Assembly: GCF_000447775.1 (NCBI RefSeq)
Contig: NZ_AUNJ01000495.1
Coordinates: 1-34,232, forward strand
Source of the DNA: Bacteriovorax sp. DB6_IX
Lineage (GTDB): Bacteria; Bdellovibrionota; Bacteriovoracia; Bacteriovoracales; Bacteriovoracaceae
Direction: 5' to 3'
Length of the DNA stretch: 34,232 bases
Part shown: positions 12,875 through 25,374 of the stretch, in pieces
Layout: every line of letters starts with the position of its first letter
Position numbering within the stretch: position 1 is the first letter of the stretch
Translations under genes and position numbers: made by a program
Notes under the pieces: model-generated
The model's input: only the letters and a program-made list of their open reading frames with translations
Told to the model about the DNA's origin: nothing
Databases searched by the model: none

Positions 12875-12925
12875 CTACATTTCTGTGACACTAAAGCCCT
12901 CTTAATTGTATAAACTCATTTATAC
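12875..12925 (+). promoter_or_regulatory. Putative hemA promoter with shared heme motif and inverted repeat
   Basis: CTACATTTCTGTGACAC (12875-12891) matches 15 of 17 bases of a sequence upstream of hemC. Its GTGACA end could serve as a -35 hexamer, with TATAAA (12909-12914) as a -10 after an 18-base spacer. A perfect inverted repeat, GTATAAA-CTCA-TTTATAC (12908-12925), overlaps the -10 and could be a repressor operator. The hemA ATG is 75 bases downstream of the motif. The function is inferred. Confidence 0.45.
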
Positions 12926-12965: not shown

Positions 12966-13886
12966 ATGCTTCACGCAATTAAATTATTACATATCCAAGG
13001 AAATACAGCAGAACTCTCATCTGAGTTACTAGATGAAAAGGGAATCTTTCTTCTAAAGACATGTCAGAGGGCCCTGATTGTAAAGACGACTCCTGTGAAG
13101 AAGGATCACCAATCACTTGGTGATTTCTACGAGGGAAAGGATGCCTACCAATTTCTCTTAGAAACAATTTGTGGACTTAAAAGTAAACTTCAAGGTGAAA
13201 GTGAGATTGTGGCCCAATTCAAAGAGGCCTATCACAACTATCTTGAAAATGAAGTCAGAAGTAGCGTTATCCTGAGAGTCTTAGAAAAACTCTTTAAAGA
13301 TGCTAAGGAAATCCGTAGAGACTATCTCGTTAAAATCGGACAACAGTCCTATGCTGGAATTGCCAGAAGAATTGTTCAGACAAAGTATGAGGCCGGTCAC
13401 GTACTCATTCTCGGTTCTGGTCAACTTGCTAAGGATGTTCTCAAGCTTCTACAAAAGAGATATCAGATCTCTATTAGTGCTAGAAACCCACAAAAGGTCG
13501 CCGAACTTATTGCAGAATACCCACACTTAGATATTCAAATTGTCCCTTGGCAAAATCACCAAAGCTACCAAGGTTACGATACAATAATTAATACGATTGG
13601 GGCCCAGACAACCCTCTTTGGTCATGACTTCTTTGCTCCAAGATGTCCAAAGAAGAATATCTTCATCGATCTGGGATCACCATCAGTGATTCAAACTTCA
13701 CATACAAAAGATCATGGGGTCTTTAGACTCACAGATATTTTCAACCATGGGCAGGAACTCGATCAAGAGAAGATGATTAAGATTCAAAATGCTCAATCGG
13801 CCATTACTGGTCTGGTAGATAGAAGAGCTGTTAGCCTTGGTCACAATCATCCATTTAGTTGGGAAGAGTTACAATTCGCTTACTAA
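12966..13886 (+). CDS. hemA: Glutamyl-tRNA reductase, short form lacking the C-terminal dimerisation domain
   Basis: GluTR reduces the glutamate on tRNA-Glu to glutamate-1-semialdehyde with NADPH, the committed step of C5-pathway heme synthesis. Seen are the catalytic cysteine in KTCQRALI (C33), the LQGESEIVAQFKEAY signature (75-89), and the NADPH-binding VLILGSGQLAKDV (146-158). The product has 306 residues against about 420 in typical GluTR. It ends shortly after the Rossmann domain, so the spinal helix is short and the dimerisation domain is absent. The gene ends cleanly with TAA overlapping the TAG of the converging glycosyltransferase gene, so there is no hidden extension in this frame. 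Its likely partner HemL is encoded about 4.6 kb downstream. Confidence 0.92.
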   Translation: MLHAIKLLHIQGNTAELSSELLDEKGIFLLKTCQRALIVKTTPVKKDHQSLGDFYEGKDAYQFLLETICGLKSKLQGESEIVAQFKEAYHNYLENEVRSSVILRVLEKLFKDAKEIRRDYLVKIGQQSYAGIARRIVQTKYEAGHVLILGSGQLAKDVLKLLQKRYQISISARNPQKVAELIAEYPHLDIQIVPWQNHQSYQGYDTIINTIGAQTTLFGHDFFAPRCPKKNIFIDLGSPSVIQTSHTKDHGVFRLTDIFNHGQELDQEKMIKIQNAQSAITGLVDRRAVSLGHNHPFSWEELQFAY

Positions 13887-14698
13887 CCTAAATACTTATC
13901 ATGAACATCTGATTTTGAGCTAAAACCAATCTGCGTTTTCTCATAGATAATAAGCTTAATCAGGGCCCTGAAAATTGCCGTTTGTGCAGAAATCACAAAA
14001 CCAAGTTTTCCTAAGCGCCAAGACTTTTTAAAGATATGGAAGAAAGTCCAGTAAAGAGTTGCAAGAACCTCTATGGCACCGACTCGCTTACCTCTTTCAA
14101 ATTTCTCATTGGCAACTAAGAGAGTAAAACGAGGAACTTTTTTAACCCAGTCTTCGATACCATATGTTGGATCATGAAGAACTCGAAAGTTCTGATTTAT
14201 ATAACCAATTTTATCACTTTGTTCATGGACTGGCTTTCCATCTATTAGATGCTCATGATGGTTACCACCAGTATAGCGAACACGGTCTTTGATGAAGAGT
14301 CTTTCTTGCCACCAACTCTTTCCGTGGCCAGAAGAAACCTCTTGCCCAAGGTAGTATTCAGTACGACAGATATTATAGAGTACCTTATCTGGGTTATTAT
14401 TAACTATTTTATATATCTCATCGGCCAACTCAACAGTCATGGCCTCGTCACTATCAATCATGAAGCACCACTCATGAGTGGCCTTATCAATAGAAAAATT
14501 TCTCTGGGCTATAAAACCAGGCCAAGGATTCTTGTGAATCACTACATTTTCATAACTCGCAGCAATCTCTAAAGTTCTATCAGTACTTCCCCCATCGATG
14601 ATAACAACCTCATCAAAGCGAGTTAGTGAATCAAGACATCTCTTAATAAACTTTTCTGAATTCTGAGTTAATAGGAGTACTGAAATTTTCTTAGACAT
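13883..14698 (-). CDS. Family 2 glycosyltransferase, WaaE/KdtX-like
   Basis: A cytoplasmic GT-A glycosyltransferase expected to add a sugar to lipopolysaccharide core or a similar glycan. The 271-residue protein starts ISVLLLTQNSEKFIKRCLDSL, has DGGSTDRT (35-42) for nucleotide binding and the metal-binding DSDE (82-85). It continues with WQERLF and a TGGNHHEHL region like WaaE-type enzymes. The C-terminal 60 residues are basic and amphipathic, consistent with membrane association. A GAGGATAGA sequence precedes the ATG. It is the last of three minus-strand genes lying between hemA and hemC. Its stop codon overlaps the hemA stop, leaving no space for a terminator. Confidence 0.88.
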   Translation of the reverse strand: MSKKISVLLLTQNSEKFIKRCLDSLTRFDEVVIIDGGSTDRTLEIAASYENVVIHKNPWPGFIAQRNFSIDKATHEWCFMIDSDEAMTVELADEIYKIVNNNPDKVLYNICRTEYYLGQEVSSGHGKSWWQERLFIKDRVRYTGGNHHEHLIDGKPVHEQSDKIGYINQNFRVLHDPTYGIEDWVKKVPRFTLLVANEKFERGKRVGAIEVLATLYWTFFHIFKKSWRLGKLGFVISAQTAIFRALIKLIIYEKTQIGFSSKSDVHDKYLG

Positions 14699-14709
14699 TC
14701 TATCCTCTA

Positions 14710-15780
14710 TTACTTACTTAAGAAGTCATACCAACGAGCAAAGTTCTTCTTCTTATCAAATTTTTCTTCTACTATTTGGCGACCATTCTTTCCAAATTGT
14801 GCACGCAGGTTCTTATCTTTAATAAGGATCTCCAACTTATTGGCAAAGTCTTCCTCACTAAAGGCCTCTGCTAAAAATCCCGATTTACTATCCGCGACAA
14901 CTTCTTTCATGCTACTTGTATTGAAGGCCACCACAGGTTTCCCACAGGCCATGGCCTCAATCATAGATCGGGCCGTCCCCTCATAACGGGAAGTAAAAGC
15001 GTAGATATCAATAGTTTTAACAAAGCTGGCAACATCATCGGTATGGCCGAGAAATTCGACCTCTTTTTCTAAACCTAGCTCACTTCTTAGCTTCTCTAAA
15101 CTCTCGCTCTCTTCACCTGTACCAGCGATCTTCATGACAAAATGGTGTCCCCGCTCTTTTAAAATTTTAAGAGAAGGAAGAAGCATATCCAGACCTTTTT
15201 GATGAGAAAGCCTCACGGCATTTCCCAAAGTGATAAGTTCTTCAGAAGTTTCACCAACATAGGAAAAATCATCAAGATCTATCCCATTAGCAATAACTGG
15301 TGCGTATTTGTTCTCACTTAATAAAAGTGGTGATTTATTTTTAAATTCATCTCTAACCGCTTCAGAGATTGGGACAAAGTAATCAATCCCTCTTTGAAAG
15401 GCCAGACGGTAAGAAAGTGATTGCTTTGGCGCAATAGGCATACCACAACGAAGGACAACTTTTTTTACCTTGGCCGCCTTCACTGCGAGAGCAGCACTTC
15501 GAACATCTCGAAAAGAGTTGAAGACAAGAACATCTAGTTTATCTCTTTCTATCATGGCCTTAACCTTAAAATAGAAGAAGATATTAAAATAACTATTCTT
15601 CGTGATCTGAACATCCCTAATATGAAACCCTAAATCACGTGATCTCTTTGCTAGTTCACCATCAATGGGCGAATAGATAAAGACCTTATCACCTTTATCA
15701 TGACAGTTCTTGGCCATTTCAATATGCCACTTCTCACCGCCACCCCAAATAGAATAACCATTGAAGAAACCAATTCTCAT
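14710..15780 (-). CDS. Family 4 (GT-B) glycosyltransferase
   Basis: A retaining GT-B glycosyltransferase, probably for lipopolysaccharide or another surface glycan. The 356-residue protein begins with a glycine-rich loop, FFNGYSIWGGGEKWHIEMA. Its C-terminal Rossmann half carries LSHQKGLDMLLPSLKIL, IAGTGEESESLEKL, VEFLGHTDDV, and the EX7E donor-site motif in RYEGTARSMIEAMACGKPVVAF. Length is standard. The ATG shares its A with the TAA stop of the upstream glycosyltransferase gene (TAATG), and the next gene begins 11 bases after its own stop, so the three form one operon. Acceptor and donor sugars cannot be told from the sequence. Confidence 0.92.
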   Translation of the reverse strand: MRIGFFNGYSIWGGGEKWHIEMAKNCHDKGDKVFIYSPIDGELAKRSRDLGFHIRDVQITKNSYFNIFFYFKVKAMIERDKLDVLVFNSFRDVRSAALAVKAAKVKKVVLRCGMPIAPKQSLSYRLAFQRGIDYFVPISEAVRDEFKNKSPLLLSENKYAPVIANGIDLDDFSYVGETSEELITLGNAVRLSHQKGLDMLLPSLKILKERGHHFVMKIAGTGEESESLEKLRSELGLEKEVEFLGHTDDVASFVKTIDIYAFTSRYEGTARSMIEAMACGKPVVAFNTSSMKEVVADSKSGFLAEAFSEEDFANKLEILIKDKNLRAQFGKNGRQIVEEKFDKKKNFARWYDFLSK

Positions 15781-16697
15781 TACTTTACCAACTTATAATT
15801 TTTGAATTCACCAATTCGATAACCTGTAAGACTTTCAATATAGTCACTAATGGCCATACGAATATGCTTCATTCTAAAGTCAGACTCGAGAGAATCAAGA
15901 CTCAAATCATTTCTATTCTCTTCAATCCACTTGGCCATAAGCTTTGGATGAGTGTCTTTAAATTGCTTTAAACCAAACACCTTCTTATATGACCAATCCT
16001 CAGAAGATTCGTAATCTTTTCCATGGTAGAGCTTATCAAAAGACTTAATTTTCTTGGCCATGACTTGTTCACTTCTGGCCCAACCATAGTGAAAAATTCT
16101 CGCATCAATAAGCTTTGCAAAAGGCTTACGCCCATCAGGAAATCGGAAACCTTGTGCATCGAGGTGAGAGCGAATTCCAGTTCCATTTTTAACAGTTCGA
16201 ACCTCTCTTCGATAGATAGTTCTCGTGTATTTATAAATATCAACATTTCCAAAGAAATGAATATAATTGTAAACGAGGGCCTCGAGATCATTGCGATCGA
16301 TCAACTCTTTAATACCATTTTCAATATTCACCAAATCATCTTCATGAAGAACTTCATCTCCTTGAATATACTGACAGGCCTTTCCACGACACTGATCAAG
16401 GGCAATATTTGTTTGCTGCGAAAGGATCAATCCACTCTTTTGAATATTTGGATCCCACCAAGACTTTATAAACTTATACTTACTACCAGTAAGATTATCT
16501 CTTAAATATTCCTCTGTACCATCATCTTCAGTACACTCAGGATTATTAAAACCCACATTAATAACGACTTCGTCACATAGTGGCTCAATAGAGAGAACGC
16601 TTTCTAAAATGGGATAGCCTAGCGTCAATCCATTCTTAATAAATGTAAAACCAGATGTTTGCAAGATAGCTCCTTTAACAAGCTTCAAAGATAACAT
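15780..16697 (-). CDS. Family 2-like glycosyltransferase
   Basis: A GT-A-like protein, probably acting in the same glycan pathway as the two downstream glycosyltransferases. The start at ATG 16697 is chosen because AGGTGA lies 7 bases upstream and the product then begins near the conserved SGFTFIKNGLTLGYPILES segment. The in-frame codons back to 16799 have no such site and would intrude into the hemC control region. The 305-residue protein continues with DEVVINVGFN, a GDEVLHEDD acidic stretch that probably replaces the usual DxD, and WARSEQVMAKK. Many proteins with this beginning are annotated only as glycosyltransferases. First gene of the three-gene minus-strand operon. Confidence 0.82.
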   Translation of the reverse strand: MLSLKLVKGAILQTSGFTFIKNGLTLGYPILESVLSIEPLCDEVVINVGFNNPECTEDDGTEEYLRDNLTGSKYKFIKSWWDPNIQKSGLILSQQTNIALDQCRGKACQYIQGDEVLHEDDLVNIENGIKELIDRNDLEALVYNYIHFFGNVDIYKYTRTIYRREVRTVKNGTGIRSHLDAQGFRFPDGRKPFAKLIDARIFHYGWARSEQVMAKKIKSFDKLYHGKDYESSEDWSYKKVFGLKQFKDTHPKLMAKWIEENRNDLSLDSLESDFRMKHIRMAISDYIESLTGYRIGEFKNYKLVK

Positions 16698-16813
16698 AAA
16701 ACTTTCACCTTGGCCGTAATTCTCTAAAAACATGGGACCCACGGCGTTAAAAAACAGAAAGATTATTGAGAGTGATGAGCCTGAACACATTTTCATCAAA
16801 GATGTAGACTATT

Positions 16814-16855
16814 CTACATTTCCATGACACAAATTCGATGACATTTCTGTATGTT
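16814..16855 (+). promoter_or_regulatory. Putative hemC promoter region with the shared heme motif
   Basis: CTACATTTCCATGACAC (16814-16830) differs from the hemA upstream motif at only two of 17 positions and ends 79 bases before the hemC start, against 75 for hemA. ATGACA (16824-16829) could be a -35. TATGTT (16850-16855) is a possible -10, with a long 20-base spacer, so the promoter assignment is weak even though the shared motif is clear. Confidence 0.4.
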
Positions 16856-16908: not shown

Positions 16909-18468
16909 TTGACAAATATCGTTCCAGTCAAAAAGAAATATATTATTGGAACTCGTGGTTCCCTACTTGCCCTCACTCAATGTGGACAAATTAAAGATCA
17001 ATTAGAAGAGTTAACAGGTGATGAGTTTGAACTCAAAGTTATCAAAACTCAAGGTGATCAAATTGTCGATAAGCCACTATGGCAACTAGAGGGAAAAGAC
17101 TTCTTTACAAAAGAACTTGATGCTGAACTACTCGAAAAGAAAATCGACTTAGTTGTCCACTCTTATAAAGATCTTGGAAGTGATAGACCGCAAGGAATAA
17201 AACTGGCCGCCATCACAAAGAGGGCCTACGCTCAAGATATTCTTCTTATCAAGAAAACAACAGTTGAAAAGTTATCTCAAAAAACTGAATTCATTGTTGG
17301 GACAAGCTCACCAAGAAGAATTGTGAATATCGAATCTCAACTCTCACAATTCCTTCCCCATGGAAATAATCTTGAAGTAAAGACCAAGATGCTACGTGGA
17401 AATGTCAACACAAGAATTGGAAAGCTCGTTGAGGATCAATATGATGCAATCGTTCTGGCCCTGCCAGGGATTGAAAGGCTCGCTATCACACAGAGCTCAA
17501 GAATTGAACTTGAAGCACTCCTTGAAGGAATGACATTTATGATTCTTCCTCAATCAATCTTTCCATCAGCGGCGTCACAAGGGGCCCTTGGAATCGAGTG
17601 TCTAGAAGACAGAGATGACAATGGAGAACTTCTAGAAAAACTTCAAAAGGTCCAAGACAAGGATACAGTTAGTGAAGTAAGTCGTGAAAGACATGCCTTT
17701 GCAAATTATGGTGGAGGTTGTCACCTAGCTGTAGGAATCAACGTGATGAAGGCAGGAGATTACTACCTCCATGTCCACAGAGGAGCAGTTGATGATAAAA
17801 CAGTTGCTGAAATTCACTTAGAAGGAAGCTTTCCAAGTCCAGATAAGAAGACAAAGGCCTTTATCGGAATGCCTGCTTCAAAGCTTGAAAAAGACGGTGA
17901 GCTAAACGAATTTACACCATGTAGACTTCTTAAGAAGACAGAGCTTAAATTAGAACAACTCCCCGAGGGAGATACTCTAATCTCTTCTTCGTATGGGATG
18001 AATAATCTAGAAAAAGCGAGTGGTGCTATTTTTACAGCGGGAACAAAGACGTGGCAGCAACTCGCTCAAAAAGGTCTTTGGGCAAATGCGAGTTGTGATT
18101 CACTCGGAGAAGCTTACTTAGAAAATATTAGAAACTCTAAGACTTTAGAAATTATGTTAGGGGCCAATCGTTCTTTGAATATTCTTACAAATGAAGAAGG
18201 TTACTCAAAGTATGGAAATATACTTGGCGCCTATAAGAAGGAAATCCTTGAGCTTTCTCAAGCTGAAGAAGATGAGTTACTAAACTGTGATACATTCTAT
18301 TGGACAAGTTTTTCTCAATATCAGGCCTACACTCAGAAGTACCCAAAGATAGCGGAGGGATTTCACTGCTGTGGTCTAGGAAAGACGCTTGAAGCATTTA
18401 AAGAGAGAGAAATTAGTGTGCGTCCATTCTCATCTATAACAGAATTCAAAAATTGGTTTAAAAAATAA
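16909..18468 (+). CDS. hemC: Fused porphobilinogen deaminase and uroporphyrinogen-III synthase
   Basis: The N-terminal part (about 1-330) is HemC, which joins four porphobilinogens into hydroxymethylbilane. Seen are GTRGSLLALTQ (14-24), HSYKDL (84-89, usually HSMKDLP, catalytic D88), GTSSPRR (131-137), LRGNVNTR (162-169) and the cofactor cysteine in GGGCHLAVG (C271). The C-terminal part (about 350-519) has the loose HemD pattern (FTAGTKTWQQLA, FYWTSFSQYQAYT, FHCCGLGKTLEAF), consistent with uroporphyrinogen-III synthase, which closes the ring. HemD diverges strongly even within bacteria, so this half is less certain. The start is TTG with AGGAG 5 bases upstream. First gene of the main heme operon; hemL follows after 9 bases. 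Confidence 0.92.
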   Translation: MTNIVPVKKKYIIGTRGSLLALTQCGQIKDQLEELTGDEFELKVIKTQGDQIVDKPLWQLEGKDFFTKELDAELLEKKIDLVVHSYKDLGSDRPQGIKLAAITKRAYAQDILLIKKTTVEKLSQKTEFIVGTSSPRRIVNIESQLSQFLPHGNNLEVKTKMLRGNVNTRIGKLVEDQYDAIVLALPGIERLAITQSSRIELEALLEGMTFMILPQSIFPSAASQGALGIECLEDRDDNGELLEKLQKVQDKDTVSEVSRERHAFANYGGGCHLAVGINVMKAGDYYLHVHRGAVDDKTVAEIHLEGSFPSPDKKTKAFIGMPASKLEKDGELNEFTPCRLLKKTELKLEQLPEGDTLISSSYGMNNLEKASGAIFTAGTKTWQQLAQKGLWANASCDSLGEAYLENIRNSKTLEIMLGANRSLNILTNEEGYSKYGNILGAYKKEILELSQAEEDELLNCDTFYWTSFSQYQAYTQKYPKIAEGFHCCGLGKTLEAFKEREISVRPFSSITEFKNWFKK

Positions 18469-18477
18469 GGATAGTAT

Positions 18478-19746
18478 ATGACAAATCAAACTCAATTATT
18501 CGAAAGAAGTAAAGAACTTGTCCCAGGTGGAGTTCACTCTCCTGTTAGAAGTTTTAAAGGACTAGACTCAACTCCTCGTTTCGTAAAATCAGCCAAGGGT
18601 GCTTATATAACTGATGTTGATGGAAAAGAGTATATCGATTTCTGTATGAGCTTTGGACCTCTTATCCTGGGTCATAGAAATGAAGTTGTTGAAAATAAAC
18701 TTAAAGAAGCTCTTGAAAGAGGATGGAGTTATGGGGCTTGCGAACCTTACTCACTTGATCTCGCAGAACTACTCCTAGAGAGACTTCCATTTGTAGATCA
18801 AATTCGTTTTGTGAACTCTGGAACAGAGGCCGTGATGACGGCCTTAAGACTTGCGAGAGGGGCCACAAAGAAGAATAAAATTATTAAATTCAATGGTTGT
18901 TACCACGGGCATGTTGACTCAATGTTAATTAAGGCCGGTTCAGGTTTAGCAGGAACAGCTGAAGCATCTTCAGGAGGAGTTCCAGAAGGTATTGCACAAG
19001 ATACACTTATCTTAGAGCTTGGTGACCTTGAAGGAGTCAAGGCCTGTTTTGAAGATCACAAGGATCAGATTGCAGCGATTATCGTAGAGCCTCTTCCTGC
19101 AAATAATGGACTTCTTATTCAAGAAATGGACTTCCTTAATGGACTAAGAGAAATCACAAAAGAAAATGATGCTCTTCTTATCTTTGATGAGGTTATCTCT
19201 GGTTTCAGAGTGGCCTTTGGTGGGATGGCCGAAAAGACAGGAATTACACCTGATATCGTTACCTATGGAAAGATTATTGGGGGTGGGCTTCCGGTTGGAG
19301 CAATCGCTGCAAAGAAAGAAATCATGAGCAATCTTGCTCCTGTTGGAAGTGTCTACCAAGCGGGAACACTTAGTGCAAACCCTCTAGCTATGGTTGGAGG
19401 TAGAGAAACACTACTTCAAATGACGGCTGACAAATATGTTGAGCTTGAAAAGAACACAAATAGAATCGCAGAGGTATTCAAGAAATGGCTAGCAGAGTAC
19501 GACGGTGGAAAGTTCTCTAACTATAACGTTATTCACACAGCCTCTCTTTTTTGGATCGTTCCAGGTGATAAGATTAGATGTGTAAATAATATCCCAGGAA
19601 ATATTGGAGAAGACTTTGTGCCACTATTTGAATTACTTCTGGACAAGGGAATTTATCTTTCACCAAATGCCTACGAGGTAGGTTTTGCTTCACTTGCTCA
19701 CAATGATGAAGTGATTAAAGACCTTGAGGAAAGACTTTGGAAATAA
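18478..19746 (+). CDS. hemL: Glutamate-1-semialdehyde 2,1-aminomutase
   Basis: HemL converts glutamate-1-semialdehyde, the HemA product, to 5-aminolevulinate using PLP. The 422-residue protein has VPGGVHSPVRSFKG near the start, FVNSGTEAVMTALRLAR, FNGCYHGHVD, IIVEPLPANNG, LIFDEVISGFR, and the PLP lysine in TYGKIIGGGLPVG (K265, the same number as in E. coli). Length is normal. An AGGA sequence precedes the ATG. The last ten bases overlap the start of the kinase gene. The last 231 bases also occur at the right edge of the window as part of an exact 308-base repeat. Confidence 0.97.
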   Translation: MTNQTQLFERSKELVPGGVHSPVRSFKGLDSTPRFVKSAKGAYITDVDGKEYIDFCMSFGPLILGHRNEVVENKLKEALERGWSYGACEPYSLDLAELLLERLPFVDQIRFVNSGTEAVMTALRLARGATKKNKIIKFNGCYHGHVDSMLIKAGSGLAGTAEASSGGVPEGIAQDTLILELGDLEGVKACFEDHKDQIAAIIVEPLPANNGLLIQEMDFLNGLREITKENDALLIFDEVISGFRVAFGGMAEKTGITPDIVTYGKIIGGGLPVGAIAAKKEIMSNLAPVGSVYQAGTLSANPLAMVGGRETLLQMTADKYVELEKNTNRIAEVFKKWLAEYDGGKFSNYNVIHTASLFWIVPGDKIRCVNNIPGNIGEDFVPLFELLLDKGIYLSPNAYEVGFASLAHNDEVIKDLEERLWK

Positions 19747-19823
19747 AGAAGTCTAACTCTATTCTCTTTATTCTTTCAGGATTAGTTGGAGTCCTTATCA
19801 CCCTACTTGGGGCGTGGTGGCTC
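19516..19823 (+). repeat. 308-base exact direct repeat, copy 1 (native context)
   Basis: This stretch is identical, without any mismatch or gap, to 33925-34232. Here it lies inside continuous genes: codons 347-422 of hemL with the stop, then the first 29 codons of the sensor kinase gene. The intact reading frames on both sides mark this as the original copy. Confidence 0.97.
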
Positions 19824-20654
19824 TATCTTCTCTTCGCTTTAAGCAATAAACTTTCGGCCCTTGAAGTTCAGTCTTCAGGGCCAAATATAGCACGACTGAT
19901 TAAATGGGAAGGTACTGCATTTATCATCCTTCTCTTTATTATTATCATTTCACATACAATTCTTTTCTTTAAAGACCAGAAAAAGAATAAGGCAATCCAT
20001 GCTTTCTTCGCAGGTCTAACTCATGAGCTTAAAACTCCGCTTGCCAGTATTCGCCTACAGGCAGAAGTGATTAAGGATGAGGCCGACAGAATTGAAAATT
20101 CGAGACTAGATAAGCTTACCAATCGACTCATCGATGATACGGGAAGACTTGAAACTCAAATGGATAAGATTCTACAACTCTCAAGAATTGAAAGAGGTGG
20201 AAACTTAAATCTTGTTGCAATCCCTATTGCCTCTCTCTTTGAAAGGGAGCTCAAGAGTTTTTCTCAAGACCTTGAATATCAACTTGAGAATATCGACTCT
20301 TCAACAGAACTCATGGCAGATGAGTTCGCTCTTGAGTTAATTGTGAAAAATCTCATTCACAACACAAAGAATCACACAAAATCAAAGAAGATTCATATTA
20401 AAGGGTCGAAGCAGGAAAAGAGCTTTAAAATCACCTATCGTGACTTTGGGGCCTTTGAAGGAAATATCGCCAAACTTGGTAACCTCTTTTACAAGCACAA
20501 CTCTTCAAAAGGTTCTGGAATAGGTCTCTATCTTTCTAAGAAACTTATTAAGAGAATGAATGGTCAATTTAGTATCAAACAAGAGGACAGCGCTGGAAGT
20601 GGATTAATTTTTGAAATCACACTCCCTTTAGCAAAAGGAGCTGATCATGACTAA
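19737..20654 (+). CDS. Membrane sensor histidine kinase in the heme operon
   Basis: A 305-residue two-component sensor. Two membrane helices (about 9-34 and 58-78) flank a periplasmic loop of only about 23 residues, so any signal is probably sensed in or near the membrane. The phospho-accepting His lies in THELKTPLASIRLQAE (H96). The ATPase domain has an N box in LIVKNLIHNTKNH and a GSGIGLYLSKKL box (259-270). The usual DxGxG box is degenerate (RDFGAF, near 235-240). Translation begins at TTG inside hemL (10-base overlap), and the response-regulator gene overlaps its end by 8 bases. This tight coupling ties it to heme synthesis. Confidence 0.93.
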   Translation: MEIKKSNSILFILSGLVGVLITLLGAWWLYLLFALSNKLSALEVQSSGPNIARLIKWEGTAFIILLFIIIISHTILFFKDQKKNKAIHAFFAGLTHELKTPLASIRLQAEVIKDEADRIENSRLDKLTNRLIDDTGRLETQMDKILQLSRIERGGNLNLVAIPIASLFERELKSFSQDLEYQLENIDSSTELMADEFALELIVKNLIHNTKNHTKSKKIHIKGSKQEKSFKITYRDFGAFEGNIAKLGNLFYKHNSSKGSGIGLYLSKKLIKRMNGQFSIKQEDSAGSGLIFEITLPLAKGADHD

Positions 20655-21333
20655 GATTCTTATTGTCGAAGATGATAACAACTTAGGTGACACTCTCTTT
20701 GAGTACCTCGAAGGGTTTGGTCATGAATGTCTTCTTGCAAAGTCGGCAAAAGAGGCCAAGGAACACTTTTCTAAACTAGCTCCAGATATTGTTCTCATGG
20801 ACATAGGTCTGCCAGATGGAAGTGGGCTTGAAGTTGCAAGACAGTTTAGAGATTTTAGAAAGGATTTCGCCCTACTCTTTCTTTCGGCCCTTAACGACCC
20901 CGAAACAAAAGTTGAGGGACTAGAGATTGGCGCCGAGGACTATATTACAAAACCATTTGCTCTTAAAGAGCTTATGATAAGACTCGATCGTATTAAATCA
21001 TTCAAAGAAGATGTCAGCTCAGTTGAAGAAGAACTGGTTTTTGGTAATCTAAAAGTTTGGTTTAAACGATTTGAAGTGCAAGATGGGCAGGGAAAAATAC
21101 TCAGTCTTTCCCAAAAAGAATGTGCCATATTAAAGCACCTCTGGGTAAATAAAGGCGTCGCACTAACTCGTGATGACATTATCGACAAGGTCTGGGGAGA
21201 AGATAAATTCCCTTCACACAGAACAGTGGATAACTATATCGTCAAATTGAGAAAGTGGGCGGAAACAGATCAGAGCGGATGTCTTGAAATTCAAAGCGTT
21301 CGCGGTATTGGATATAAATTAACAATAAAATAG
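20647..21333 (+). CDS. OmpR/PhoB-family response regulator in the heme operon
   Basis: The 228-residue protein has a receiver domain (1-115) with the acidic pair D9/D10, the phosphorylation site D52 in IVLMDIGLPDGSG, S80 and K102 in YITKPFALKEL. A winged-helix DNA-binding domain (about 130-228) follows, with ECAILKHLW, the recognition-helix region SHRTVDNYIVKLRKW, and VRGIGYKL. It is the evident partner of the preceding kinase, whose gene overlaps it by 8 bases, and hemE begins 27 bases after its stop. Natural candidates for its DNA target are the shared motif upstream of hemA and hemC, but this is inference. Confidence 0.96.
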   Translation: MTKILIVEDDNNLGDTLFEYLEGFGHECLLAKSAKEAKEHFSKLAPDIVLMDIGLPDGSGLEVARQFRDFRKDFALLFLSALNDPETKVEGLEIGAEDYITKPFALKELMIRLDRIKSFKEDVSSVEEELVFGNLKVWFKRFEVQDGQGKILSLSQKECAILKHLWVNKGVALTRDDIIDKVWGEDKFPSHRTVDNYIVKLRKWAETDQSGCLEIQSVRGIGYKLTIK

Positions 21334-21360: not shown

Positions 21361-22398
21361 ATGGGTTTATTTAACGATAGAACACAAAGAGATGGAAAAA
21401 CATTTGTCCCAGTATGGTTTATGAGACAAGCTGGTCGCTACCACGATCATTATCAAAACCTAAAGAAGTCACATGACTTCATGACATTATGTAAAGATCC
21501 AAAACTAGCATGCGAAGTCACAATGGGTCCTATTGATGACTTTAAATTTGATGCAGCTATTCTTTTTTCTGACCTCCTCTTCCCTCTAGAGCACCTAGGT
21601 ATGGGTCTTGTTTATAACCCAGGGCCAAAGCTAGGAAAGAAACTCGAAACAGTTGAAGACGTAAAAAAACTACAACCTCTCGATACAGCGGAGAAGTTCT
21701 ACGGTTTTCAAGGAGAGGCCTGTACGCTTCTTAAAGAAACTCTACCTCAAAATAAAACGCTACTAGGTTTTGTTGGTGCTCCATTCACTCTTTACTCATA
21801 TGCAGTTGAAGGTTCACACGCAGGAGCACTTTATAGCTCAAAACTAGGTCTCTACGACGGTAGATGGCAGGCCTTTACGGAAATGCTCATCCCTCACCTT
21901 CTTGGTGAAATGAGAGTGCAGGCGCTTGGTGGAGCTGACGCAATGTGCCTCTTTGATACTGCCGCTGGAGAACTATGCTTAGACGACTATAAGAATATTG
22001 TTCTTCCAGTTCTTAAGAAAGTCACAGCAGAGTTTAAGAAAGAATTCCCTAATAAGAAAGTTATCTACTACTCGAAGATGACACATATGAATTACCTTCA
22101 ATCAATTGAGGATGATAATATTGATGTTCTTGGTGTAGACTGGAGACACGATCTAGGAAATGTTCTCAACACTCTTGGAAATGACTACTATATTCAAGGA
22201 AATATTGAACCTGCTTACCTTGGTCTTCCATGGGAAACTCTTGAACAGAAATGGATGAACCTCTACCAGGGACTACAAGACGCCAATGCTCCAATGGACA
22301 AATGGATCTGTGGTCTGGGACATGGTTGTCTCCAGTGGATTCCACAAGATAATGTTAAAAAGTCAGTCGAGCTTATCCAGAATAACTTTTCATACTAA
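21361..22398 (+). CDS. hemE: Uroporphyrinogen decarboxylase
   Basis: HemE removes four carboxyl groups from uroporphyrinogen III to give coproporphyrinogen III in the cytoplasm. The 345-residue protein carries the substrate-binding PVWFMRQAGRYHDHY signature (17-31) and FDAAILFSDLLFPLEHLG with the catalytic Asp of the FSD motif. GAPFTLYSYAVEG and the C-terminal GLGHGCLQWIPQDNV also match. Length is typical (about 345-360). AAAGGAATAAG precedes the ATG. It sits between the response regulator (27 bases) and hemN (17 bases) in the main heme operon. Confidence 0.97.
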   Translation: MGLFNDRTQRDGKTFVPVWFMRQAGRYHDHYQNLKKSHDFMTLCKDPKLACEVTMGPIDDFKFDAAILFSDLLFPLEHLGMGLVYNPGPKLGKKLETVEDVKKLQPLDTAEKFYGFQGEACTLLKETLPQNKTLLGFVGAPFTLYSYAVEGSHAGALYSSKLGLYDGRWQAFTEMLIPHLLGEMRVQALGGADAMCLFDTAAGELCLDDYKNIVLPVLKKVTAEFKKEFPNKKVIYYSKMTHMNYLQSIEDDNIDVLGVDWRHDLGNVLNTLGNDYYIQGNIEPAYLGLPWETLEQKWMNLYQGLQDANAPMDKWICGLGHGCLQWIPQDNVKKSVELIQNNFSY

Positions 22399-22415: not shown

Positions 22416-23663
22416 ATGAATAAGGAAAAGTTCTTTCAACTAGTGGAGAAATACCACGCCCCAGCGGGTAGATATAATTACTACCCGCGAATCTCTCAAT
22501 GGGAAGATAATCTTACCTATGAGCAGTGGTATGCCCAAGTACACGAAGATGAAGACTCCCTTGATCTCTATTTCCACATCCCCTTCTGCGATAAGTTCTG
22601 TCACTTCTGTGGTTGTAATATCAAAGTTAACCAACCAGAGCAGATTAAGCAGAAGTATCTTGAAAAAATGGTCAAAGAGTGGAAGAGCTACGATCTCTCG
22701 GCCAGTAAAATCAAGAATATCTTCTTTGGAGGTGGTACTCCAAATAGTCTCTCACTTGAGCACTACAAGTGGCTCTTTGAAGAGATTGGGATAGATAAGG
22801 ATCAATGCGATATTTCAATTGAGGCAGATCCAAGAAAACTTGATTTTAAACTAATCCAACTTCTTAGAGATTACGGCTTAAGTTCCATCTCATTTGGAGT
22901 ACAAGATTTTGATCAGGATGTACTCGATATCATCGGTCGTCCTACAGACCTTGATAAGCTCAGAAGTAATCTCATCCAATTAAAAGAATATAAAATAGAG
23001 CACACCAGTATTGATCTTCTCTATGGTCTCCCGCTACAAAATAAAGAGTCCTTGAGTTTTTTAAGAGAGATTTTAAAAGAAAAACTCATTAATAGTGCAT
23101 CACTCTATCCTTTTGCAAATGTCCCATGGTTTCAAGACTTCTACCCTCTTTGGACTGAACATAAACCAGACTTCAAAGAAAAGTATGGCCACTACTTTGA
23201 AATTATCACACTTCTTGAAGAGTTTGATATTCTCCCAATCAGTTTCGGACATTTTGCTCATAAAAGCTCGCGTCACTATAGAAGTTTTCTGGCCGGAAGT
23301 CTTAGAAGAAATATTATGGGTCACACTCTTGAGAAATCACCTATCCTTGTTGGACTTGGTGTCTCAGCGATAAGCTCTACTGCGAAGGCCCTTAAACAAA
23401 ACTCTAAGATTTTTGAAAACTATATGTTCCAAGATATTTCTTTCGATCGCTCTCACTTAAGAAGTTCAAGAGAATCAAAGATGGAAAAGATTTTCGAAGA
23501 GTTAAGCACGAGAAACACAACCATCAAAACAGGTGGAGATCTTGAAGAACTTATCCACGATGGCCTAATATGCTCAGATGCTCAAAAAGGACATATTCAA
23601 ATCACCCCACTTGGCAGACACTTCGTCCAACATATCGCACGTTTTCTCGAAAAAAGTCTTTGA
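22416..23663 (+). CDS. hemN: Oxygen-independent coproporphyrinogen III oxidase, HemN type
   Basis: A radical-SAM enzyme that decarboxylates coproporphyrinogen III to protoporphyrinogen IX without oxygen. The [4Fe-4S] cluster motif is HIPFCDKFCHFCGCN: C58, C62, C65 and the extra C67 that distinguishes true HemN from HemW-like proteins. FFGGGTPNSL, DISIEADPRKL and ISFGVQDFDQDVLDIIGR follow in the expected order. At 415 residues it is somewhat shorter than E. coli HemN (457), mostly from the N-terminus. The AGAGG before the ATG is very close, so initiation may depend on coupling to hemE. No oxygen-dependent hemF is in the window. Confidence 0.94.
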   Translation: MNKEKFFQLVEKYHAPAGRYNYYPRISQWEDNLTYEQWYAQVHEDEDSLDLYFHIPFCDKFCHFCGCNIKVNQPEQIKQKYLEKMVKEWKSYDLSASKIKNIFFGGGTPNSLSLEHYKWLFEEIGIDKDQCDISIEADPRKLDFKLIQLLRDYGLSSISFGVQDFDQDVLDIIGRPTDLDKLRSNLIQLKEYKIEHTSIDLLYGLPLQNKESLSFLREILKEKLINSASLYPFANVPWFQDFYPLWTEHKPDFKEKYGHYFEIITLLEEFDILPISFGHFAHKSSRHYRSFLAGSLRRNIMGHTLEKSPILVGLGVSAISSTAKALKQNSKIFENYMFQDISFDRSHLRSSRESKMEKIFEELSTRNTTIKTGGDLEELIHDGLICSDAQKGHIQITPLGRHFVQHIARFLEKSL

Positions 23664-23695: not shown

Positions 23696-23992
23696 ATGAA
23701 CAAAGATAATTTACTCAAAAAAATCATTCTCACGGTGATGATTACCGGAGTTGTCCAGGCCGGTGACTACCGTTATTTCGCACAAGTTATTGGTCAACAA
23801 TGCCAAAGATCTAAACAACTTCTTCTCAAAAAGACCTATCTAGGCTTTCTAAGAAACTCGCAAAGTTGTGAGGGAAGCTTTGCCAAACAACTTCTTAACT
23901 CTTGCAAAGCACTAACATGTGACTCGCTCATTAGTGCTTTTGATGAATCTAAATCTAAAGAATCAGGTACCGTAATTGGAGGATCACTCTAA
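23696..23992 (+). CDS. Small secreted protein with four cysteines, unknown
   Basis: A 98-residue protein beginning MNKDNLLKKIILTVMITG with a signal peptide ending near VVQA-GD. The frame is open further upstream, but there the sequence overlaps hemN and encodes nothing signal-like. The mature part of about 75 residues is basic and helical in appearance, with cysteines in QQCQRS, SQSCEGS and NSCKALTCDS, which could form two disulphides or bind a ligand. No family is recognised. Its TAA overlaps the ATG of the outer-membrane protein gene (TAATG), and it follows hemN by 32 bases, so the product may assist that outer-membrane protein in the periplasm. Confidence 0.72.
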   Translation: MNKDNLLKKIILTVMITGVVQAGDYRYFAQVIGQQCQRSKQLLLKKTYLGFLRNSQSCEGSFAKQLLNSCKALTCDSLISAFDESKSKESGTVIGGSL

Positions 23993-25374
23993 TGAAAAAA
24001 TATATCATCCTAACCCTTATCCCATTTATGGCCCAGGCCAATATAGAAAAGAGACTATTGGAACTTGACGATAGACTCACTGATATTGAAATATCTAATT
24101 CAACGAAGAAAGTTAATGTTGGAATGGAAATGCATATGTTTGCAGGTCATATTTCCAACGACAATGCCAATAATACTGGTGTTAAATATAGCGAACAAAA
24201 CTTTAAGAATAATCTTCGTTTGAAGTTTTCAGGGCGTCTCAACCAGGACTTCCAGGCCTATGCTTCACTTCAGGCCAGCTACTTCTTTAACTCACAAGTA
24301 CAAACAAGACAAAGTGAAACAGATGATATGACAGAGCCGACAAAGGGCTCAAAACCCTATGTCAGAACAGCTTACTTTGATTGGAAACTGAATAAGTACA
24401 CAGTCTTCTCTGCTGGTAGACTACCTACCACATCAGGGCCACCTGATCATATCAAACACGGAAGGGCACGTTTAGGGACTTATCCACTTGCCTCTTTTAA
24501 CTTACCTCTAGATGGACTCTCTCTTACGTTTAAGACGCCGAGATTTATCCCTCATTCTGAGCTTTCATTTAGAACGATCTATATCCATGGTGGACTTTCT
24601 GACAGTCAACAGCCTCACAAGGGAACACCATTTAATTCAACAACACCAACAAAACTTGCAAGAGGACATGATGGTTTCACTCAAATGGTTGAATTAGAAA
24701 ATAGAACACCGAATAAGTCCTTCTATGACTCACTCCTATTTATTGGACAATTCTCTTACTTAAAGATGTCATCATTTAAAGACTTCACTAGAAATGACCA
24801 GCTCTTGGCCCAGACGCTAGGAACAGTTGATAATAATATCTATCGTTTCACGACTGATGATAATCGACTGGCCAACCTACAACTTGCAACAGCTTATTTA
24901 GAAGTACAAAAGCTTCTTGGGACAAACTTCGACATCTTTTTAAGTTATATGAGATCTTGGAATAAGCCTGTTGCCAATATCAAGGCCACTGTAATCAGCA
25001 GTGCTCACGCAGGCTCACCTGTGGGAACCGAGATTGATGCAGGAAAGTTTATCAGCAATGGTGACACTCAAGGAACAAGAACTCTCTTTGGACTGCGCTA
25101 CAACTTTAAGAGTTCATTCATTGGAGCTGACTACTGGAAAACATCTTCCTTCCCTGCTCCAAATGATCTCTATTCAGATGACTTTATTCCACTAGGACTT
25201 ATAGCAGGAGAAGTTTATCACCTCTACTATACACATATGTTCTACAATAACGATCTTTCAATCAGAGTTGGTTACCAGAAAATTAACGATGAAAAAGTCT
25301 TCGGGACATTTAGCTACTCTGACAGTAATCAAAAGATCAGAACAATCTACACGGCCTTATTCGTGACCTATTAA
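23992..25374 (+). CDS. DUF3373-like outer-membrane protein at the end of the heme operon
   Basis: A 460-residue protein with a signal peptide (MKKYIILTLIPFMAQA), then a short coiled-coil-like segment (EKRLLELDDRLTDIEI) and a long series of alternating beta-strands ending in ...YTALFVTY, as in outer-membrane barrels. GRLPTTSGPPDHIKHG followed by GTYPLASFNLPLDGLSLTF resembles the DUF3373 family of putative porin-like proteins. Substrate unknown. It is translationally coupled to the small Cys protein and lies in line with hemN, so a role in moving tetrapyrroles, iron or another heme-linked solute is possible but only inferred from position. Confidence 0.78.
   Translation: MKKYIILTLIPFMAQANIEKRLLELDDRLTDIEISNSTKKVNVGMEMHMFAGHISNDNANNTGVKYSEQNFKNNLRLKFSGRLNQDFQAYASLQASYFFNSQVQTRQSETDDMTEPTKGSKPYVRTAYFDWKLNKYTVFSAGRLPTTSGPPDHIKHGRARLGTYPLASFNLPLDGLSLTFKTPRFIPHSELSFRTIYIHGGLSDSQQPHKGTPFNSTTPTKLARGHDGFTQMVELENRTPNKSFYDSLLFIGQFSYLKMSSFKDFTRNDQLLAQTLGTVDNNIYRFTTDDNRLANLQLATAYLEVQKLLGTNFDIFLSYMRSWNKPVANIKATVISSAHAGSPVGTEIDAGKFISNGDTQGTRTLFGLRYNFKSSFIGADYWKTSSFPAPNDLYSDDFIPLGLIAGEVYHLYYTHMFYNNDLSIRVGYQKINDEKVFGTFSYSDSNQKIRTIYTALFVTY

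Follow-up and report, generated by a model that had tools for sequence, protein, structure and literature searches.

A HemKR-like two-component system within the hem operon of Bacteriovorax and its candidate operator upstream of hemA and hemC

The window, by which we mean the whole analysed stretch of 34,232 nucleotides from Bacteriovorax sp. DB6_IX, carries a plus-strand hem operon that begins with hemC(D) (16909-18468), encoding hydroxymethylbilane synthase with a HemD-like C-terminal part. Pfam recognises only the N-terminal HemC domain in the 519 aa product; most of this protein aligns with the fused HemC-HemD of Leptospira (30% identity). Downstream follow hemL (glutamate-1-semialdehyde aminomutase; 18478-19746), the gene of a HemK-like sensor histidine kinase (19737-20654; TTG start; 305 aa with HisKA and HATPase_c domains), the gene of a HemR-like OmpR/PhoB response regulator (20647-21333; 228 aa; assigned by Pfam), hemE (uroporphyrinogen decarboxylase; 21361-22398), and a hemN-like gene (radical SAM coproporphyrinogen oxidase; 22416-23663). 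Pfam and NCBIfam assign every gene of this series; the products of hemL, hemE, and hemN fall below some curated equivalog cut-offs, yet their best matches are these families. The kinase TTG start falls within the 3' end of hemL (10 nt overlap) and the regulator ATG start within the 3' end of the kinase gene (8 nt overlap), and the identical pair of overlaps is found in five relatives (L031, L033, L045, L046, and L048). Open reading frames, coordinates, and Pfam/NCBIfam matches thus confirm the placement between hemL and hemE by overlapping genes that the preliminary description had reported. No heme efflux or heme oxygenase gene was recognised in the operon with Pfam and NCBIfam. Shortly past the operon lies a DUF3373 protein gene (23992-25374; porin-like by eye), which the closest relative (G001) also has.

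The hemA gene (12966-13886, plus strand) lies 3 kb upstream of hemC, with three minus-strand genes in between (13883-16799), at least two of them glycosyltransferase-like by eye. It encodes a short glutamyl-tRNA reductase of 306 aa, assigned by Pfam/NCBIfam and far under the TIGR01035 cut-off, which is the sole clear glutamyl-tRNA reductase in the assembly. The split between hemA and hemC is a feature of the window's genus and is accompanied by a separate hem-box at hemC.

When 58 relatives were searched with the kinase, the order hemL-kinase-regulator-hemE was recovered at all 30 best loci, across several Bdellovibrionota families; this count holds as far as the contigs extend, two of which (L022 and L025) stop within the regulator gene. 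Identical gene order in 30/30 best-matching genomes rules out chance. A pair sited away from hem genes in a close relative, which had been named beforehand as counter-evidence, was looked for in this survey of Bdellovibrionota gene order and not seen: all 30 best kinase matches are hem-linked. In larger regions from 28 genomes of the window's family and other families of the phylum, hemC precedes hemL-kinase-regulator-hemE, hemA lies ahead as well in all but one, and hemN often follows; in one of these regions (L054) the kinase gene is 1.6 kb away from hemL. Named Bacteriovoracaceae loci show the same order and box. More broadly, a kinase match at E<=1e-23 was present in 154 of 241 sampled phylum genomes, with neighbourhoods checked for part of them, and a scan of genome contigs returned Bacteriovoracales relatives and one weak match. 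In several family members that have no strong kinase match, hemE was likewise undetected. One genome (G021) retains hemA-hemC-hemL-hemE and is devoid of both the kinase/regulator pair and the box. Many relatives carry a second, paralogous kinase-regulator pair convergent to hemE (L100, L103, L111, L114, L118, and L120); the kinase related to it in the window's genome is on another contig (C336; L184).

Phosphorylated HemR of L. biflexa binds TGACA[N6]TGACA, activating hemA and repressing hmuO (PMC11426443), and this literature form, TGACAN6TGACA, was chosen a priori as the hem-box query. In the window, a plus-strand box (CTACATTTCTGTGACA; 12875..12890) lies 91 nt upstream of hemA with a -10-like TAAACT 20 nt downstream, and another (CTACATTTCCATGACA; 16814..16829, plus strand) lies 95 nt upstream of hemC with a -10-like TATGTT at the same 20 nt distance. 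The hemA box reads CTACA-N6-TGACA, its first half-site being two mismatches from the Leptospira consensus. Allowing two mismatches, a plain scan of the window gave 40 matches against 37 expected, a number at chance level, and loose scans of the window's whole genome returned mainly scattered matches; the significance of the window boxes comes from their position and conservation, not from their number.

Among the relatives examined that have the system, nearly all carry a hem-box ahead of hemA, and boxes precede heme genes in dozens of related genomes. The exact literature box occurs upstream of hemA or of a detached hemC in nine relatives, and exact boxes accompany the divergent hem-linked systems L179, L180, and L181. 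Every hemA located in the regions taken from relatives has a box ahead of it on its own strand; in L032, whose hemA fell outside the first region and was located later, this gene likewise has its own box. Of the named loci whose sequence takes in the start of hemA, 17 carry a box ahead of this gene, and the strict pattern finds none in L108. In the window, L031, L032, and L033, the detached hemC carries a box of its own, and the remaining hemC upstream regions have none (0/25). G002 and G005 have a further box ahead of hemL. A refined box, YKACAN5RTGACA, which was derived from the same promoter data, matches 30 of 32 promoters exactly, the average for shuffled sequences being 0.01. A TAnnnT -10 hexamer follows 20 nt past the box in 25 of the 32, and in at most three at any other spacing tested; the promoters are related sequences and thus do not amount to 32 independent events. 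The 20-nt spacing fits an activator site in place of the -35 element. Across 25 genomes, the composite of box and -10 pattern gave 31 matches versus 2 in the control, mainly at hemA, hemC, and hemL. We regard hemA as a probable direct target of the regulator, in which the phosphoacceptor aspartate is conserved (D52).

Further candidate targets emerged from the same pattern. In the window's genome, G001, and G004 (L068, L089, and L080), a box lies 47-48 nt upstream of a gene for a START-domain protein, possibly a new regulon member; no such box stands ahead of the orthologues located in G005, G007, and G015. In G014, the gene of a TonB-dependent receptor, which a tonB gene adjoins, is preceded by a box at a distance of 48 nt. 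A search of 12 genomes, the window's own among them, gave no PF01126 match, and by this measure the hmuO-type heme oxygenase arm of the Leptospira regulon is missing here.

The kinase has two TM segments, a short periplasmic loop, and no further sensor domain, with H96 as the histidine in HisKA. Its AF2 model (mean pLDDT 72) forms a helical hairpin of helices 2-43 and 51-119. Among 33 hem-linked kinases including those of Leptospira, W27 and W28 (33/33) and E58 (31/33) are the only positions beyond the catalytic core to reach at least 85% conservation, and the two kinases without an aligned E58 have a glutamate one column away. The model places W27-W28 and E58 towards the loop end of the two membrane helices, and we hypothesise from this conservation that they take part in sensing. 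The paralogous kinase of the second pair near hemE has no WW motif in TM1. L. biflexa with a replaced HemK loop grew without hemin (PMC2266917); a primer in that study, translated by hand, reads VWWWILG, so that the construct keeps a Trp motif, and by alignment the Glu position was probably swapped out. Because growth without hemin reads the kinase-on state and not shutdown, this result does not decide against sensing near the loop. Speculatively, HemK kinases from Leptospira to Bdellovibrionota might form a class of intramembrane porphyrin-pathway sensors, in which the invariant Trp pair that ends TM1 and the Glu that starts TM2 make up an outer-face site and whose regulon takes in a porphyrin- or lipid-handling START-domain protein, a proposal to which we attach rather limited credence. 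Deep kinase variation across the phylum leaves only a few residues as candidates for sensing and also supplies an operator and promoter rule.

The homology, the conserved operon, the hemA and hemC boxes with their promoter geometry, and the joint absence of pair and box in G021 are features of the sequences themselves; together with the Leptospira homologue they lend good support to control of heme production by the pair, and likewise to the dedicated heme-synthesis regulator with membrane or internal sensing put forward in the preliminary description. We consider it very probable that the pair is a HemKR orthologue whose phosphorylated regulator activates hemA and hemC via the hem-box and whose kinase is switched to a phosphatase by a porphyrin-pathway metabolite. 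A shortage of heme precursors would leave the kinase on and the regulator phosphorylated; a phospho-regulator dimer would then bind the direct-repeat hem-box, which takes the place of the -35 element at hemA and hemC, and, judging from promoter geometry and from Leptospira, activate transcription. With the kinase and regulator genes inside the hemC operon, this would amount to positive autoregulation. As ALA, porphyrin, or heme builds up, it would be sensed within the membrane hairpin or on its outer face, perhaps through the TM1 WW and TM2 E, and the kinase would turn phosphatase and lower heme synthesis. The last step is modelled on Leptospira, where ALA triggers HemK phosphatase activity and shutdown, as reported for L. 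biflexa only (PMC11426443).

Other readings were weighed against this one. The extra boxes at the START-domain gene (three genomes) and the TonB-dependent receptor (one) would suit a pair that senses envelope, redox, or oxygen state and controls the heme genes among many other targets. We find this unlikely, since composite box-promoter matches fall mainly at hem genes, a TonB receptor is compatible with heme or iron uptake, every examined locus has the pair within the hem operon, and the Leptospira homologue responds to ALA (PMC11426443). That the regulator represses hemA and hemC appears more improbable still: a binding site alone gives no direction, and Leptospira phospho-HemR does repress hmuO, but Leptospira mutants show reduced hemA, hemE, and hemL expression and, in L. 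biflexa, require hemin or ALA (PMC2266917), and in the promoters studied here the second half-site stands in for the -35 at a fixed 20 nt from the -10, as in Pho boxes. Genes that overlap in an operon can differ in function, and the pair could in principle be a passenger trapped in the operon and controlling unrelated genes; already disfavoured by its conservation across families, by the operator upstream of hemA and at hemC where hemA is detached, and by the joint absence of pair and box in G021, this has a very slim chance of being correct. With activation of hemA and hemC by a HemKR orthologue as the preferred reading, our results suggest that this predatory group tunes its own heme synthesis through a dedicated feedback switch.

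HssRS of Staphylococcus and ChrAS/HrrAS of Corynebacterium, which are two-component systems tied to heme, lie beside heme efflux (hrt) or heme oxygenase genes, whereas the window pair lies in a biosynthetic operon. The order of window proteins around the pair in relatives comprises hem genes only (28 genomes), and an HssRS/ChrAS assignment was rejected on account of the wrong neighbourhood. Assignments to PhoRB, CreCB, and BaeSR were also rejected, with NCBIfam scores far under the cut-offs, and a PDB sequence search with the pair returned generic kinases and regulators only. Pho promoters have an 11-nt direct repeat in place of the -35 element at a fixed distance to the -10. The present system resembles PhoB and its Pho box in having an OmpR/PhoB regulator, an 11-nt direct repeat replacing the -35, and a fixed -10 distance, but it differs in repeat sequence and regulon, and the window proteins score far below the PhoB/PhoR cut-offs.

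The closest counterpart is HemKR of Leptospira. The preliminary description held that heme two-component systems usually stay out of the tetrapyrrole operon, which is wrong: hklep/rrlep (HemKR) of L. interrogans is located between hemL and hemE, and a heme-gene linkage in Bdellovibrio bacteriovorus was mentioned in 2008 as data not shown (PMC2266917). In a plasmid collection, the top matches to the window kinase and regulator are L. interrogans proteins, with 35% identity to HemK over nearly the full length and 38.5% to HemR. In the kinase search, two Leptospira kinases alone reach E ~2e-35 and align well over the TM region, the next match being at ~1e-15. A tree of the catalytic part groups Leptospira HemK among the hem-linked kinases with a moderate support of 88 and other kinases of the phylum apart, the divergent hem-linked L179 and L180 lying outside the clade.

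The L. interrogans operon reads hemA-hemCD-hemB-hemL-HK-RR-hemE-hemN, and its hemA has an exact box (TGACACTTCTTTGACA) with TATAGT 19 nt on. Leptospira HemKR (LB014-LB015 in L. interrogans) and the window pair have in common the slot between hemL and hemE, the domain make-up, the short loop, and the WW at the TM1 end; L. interrogans and the window also share the hem-box plus -10 upstream of hemA, a comparably short HemA (annotated as hypothetical in L. interrogans), and the HemC-HemD fusion, and D52 of the window regulator corresponds to D53 of L. biflexa HemR as phosphoacceptor. They differ in hemB, which is part of the L. interrogans operon and absent from that of the window, and in the first half-site, which is TGACA in Leptospira and has drifted to CTACA in the window. 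Heme oxygenase is HemR-repressed in L. biflexa, whereas the 12 genomes of the window's family lack PF01126, and three genomes here have a box ahead of a START-domain gene. Repression of hmuO is a feature of the L. biflexa regulon and does not define the kinase/regulator pair. By sequence comparison, then, this kinase and regulator are the Bacteriovoracaceae orthologues of HemKR in Leptospira and belong to a kind of system already known; what is new is the comparative evidence pointing to direct control of both hemA and hemC.
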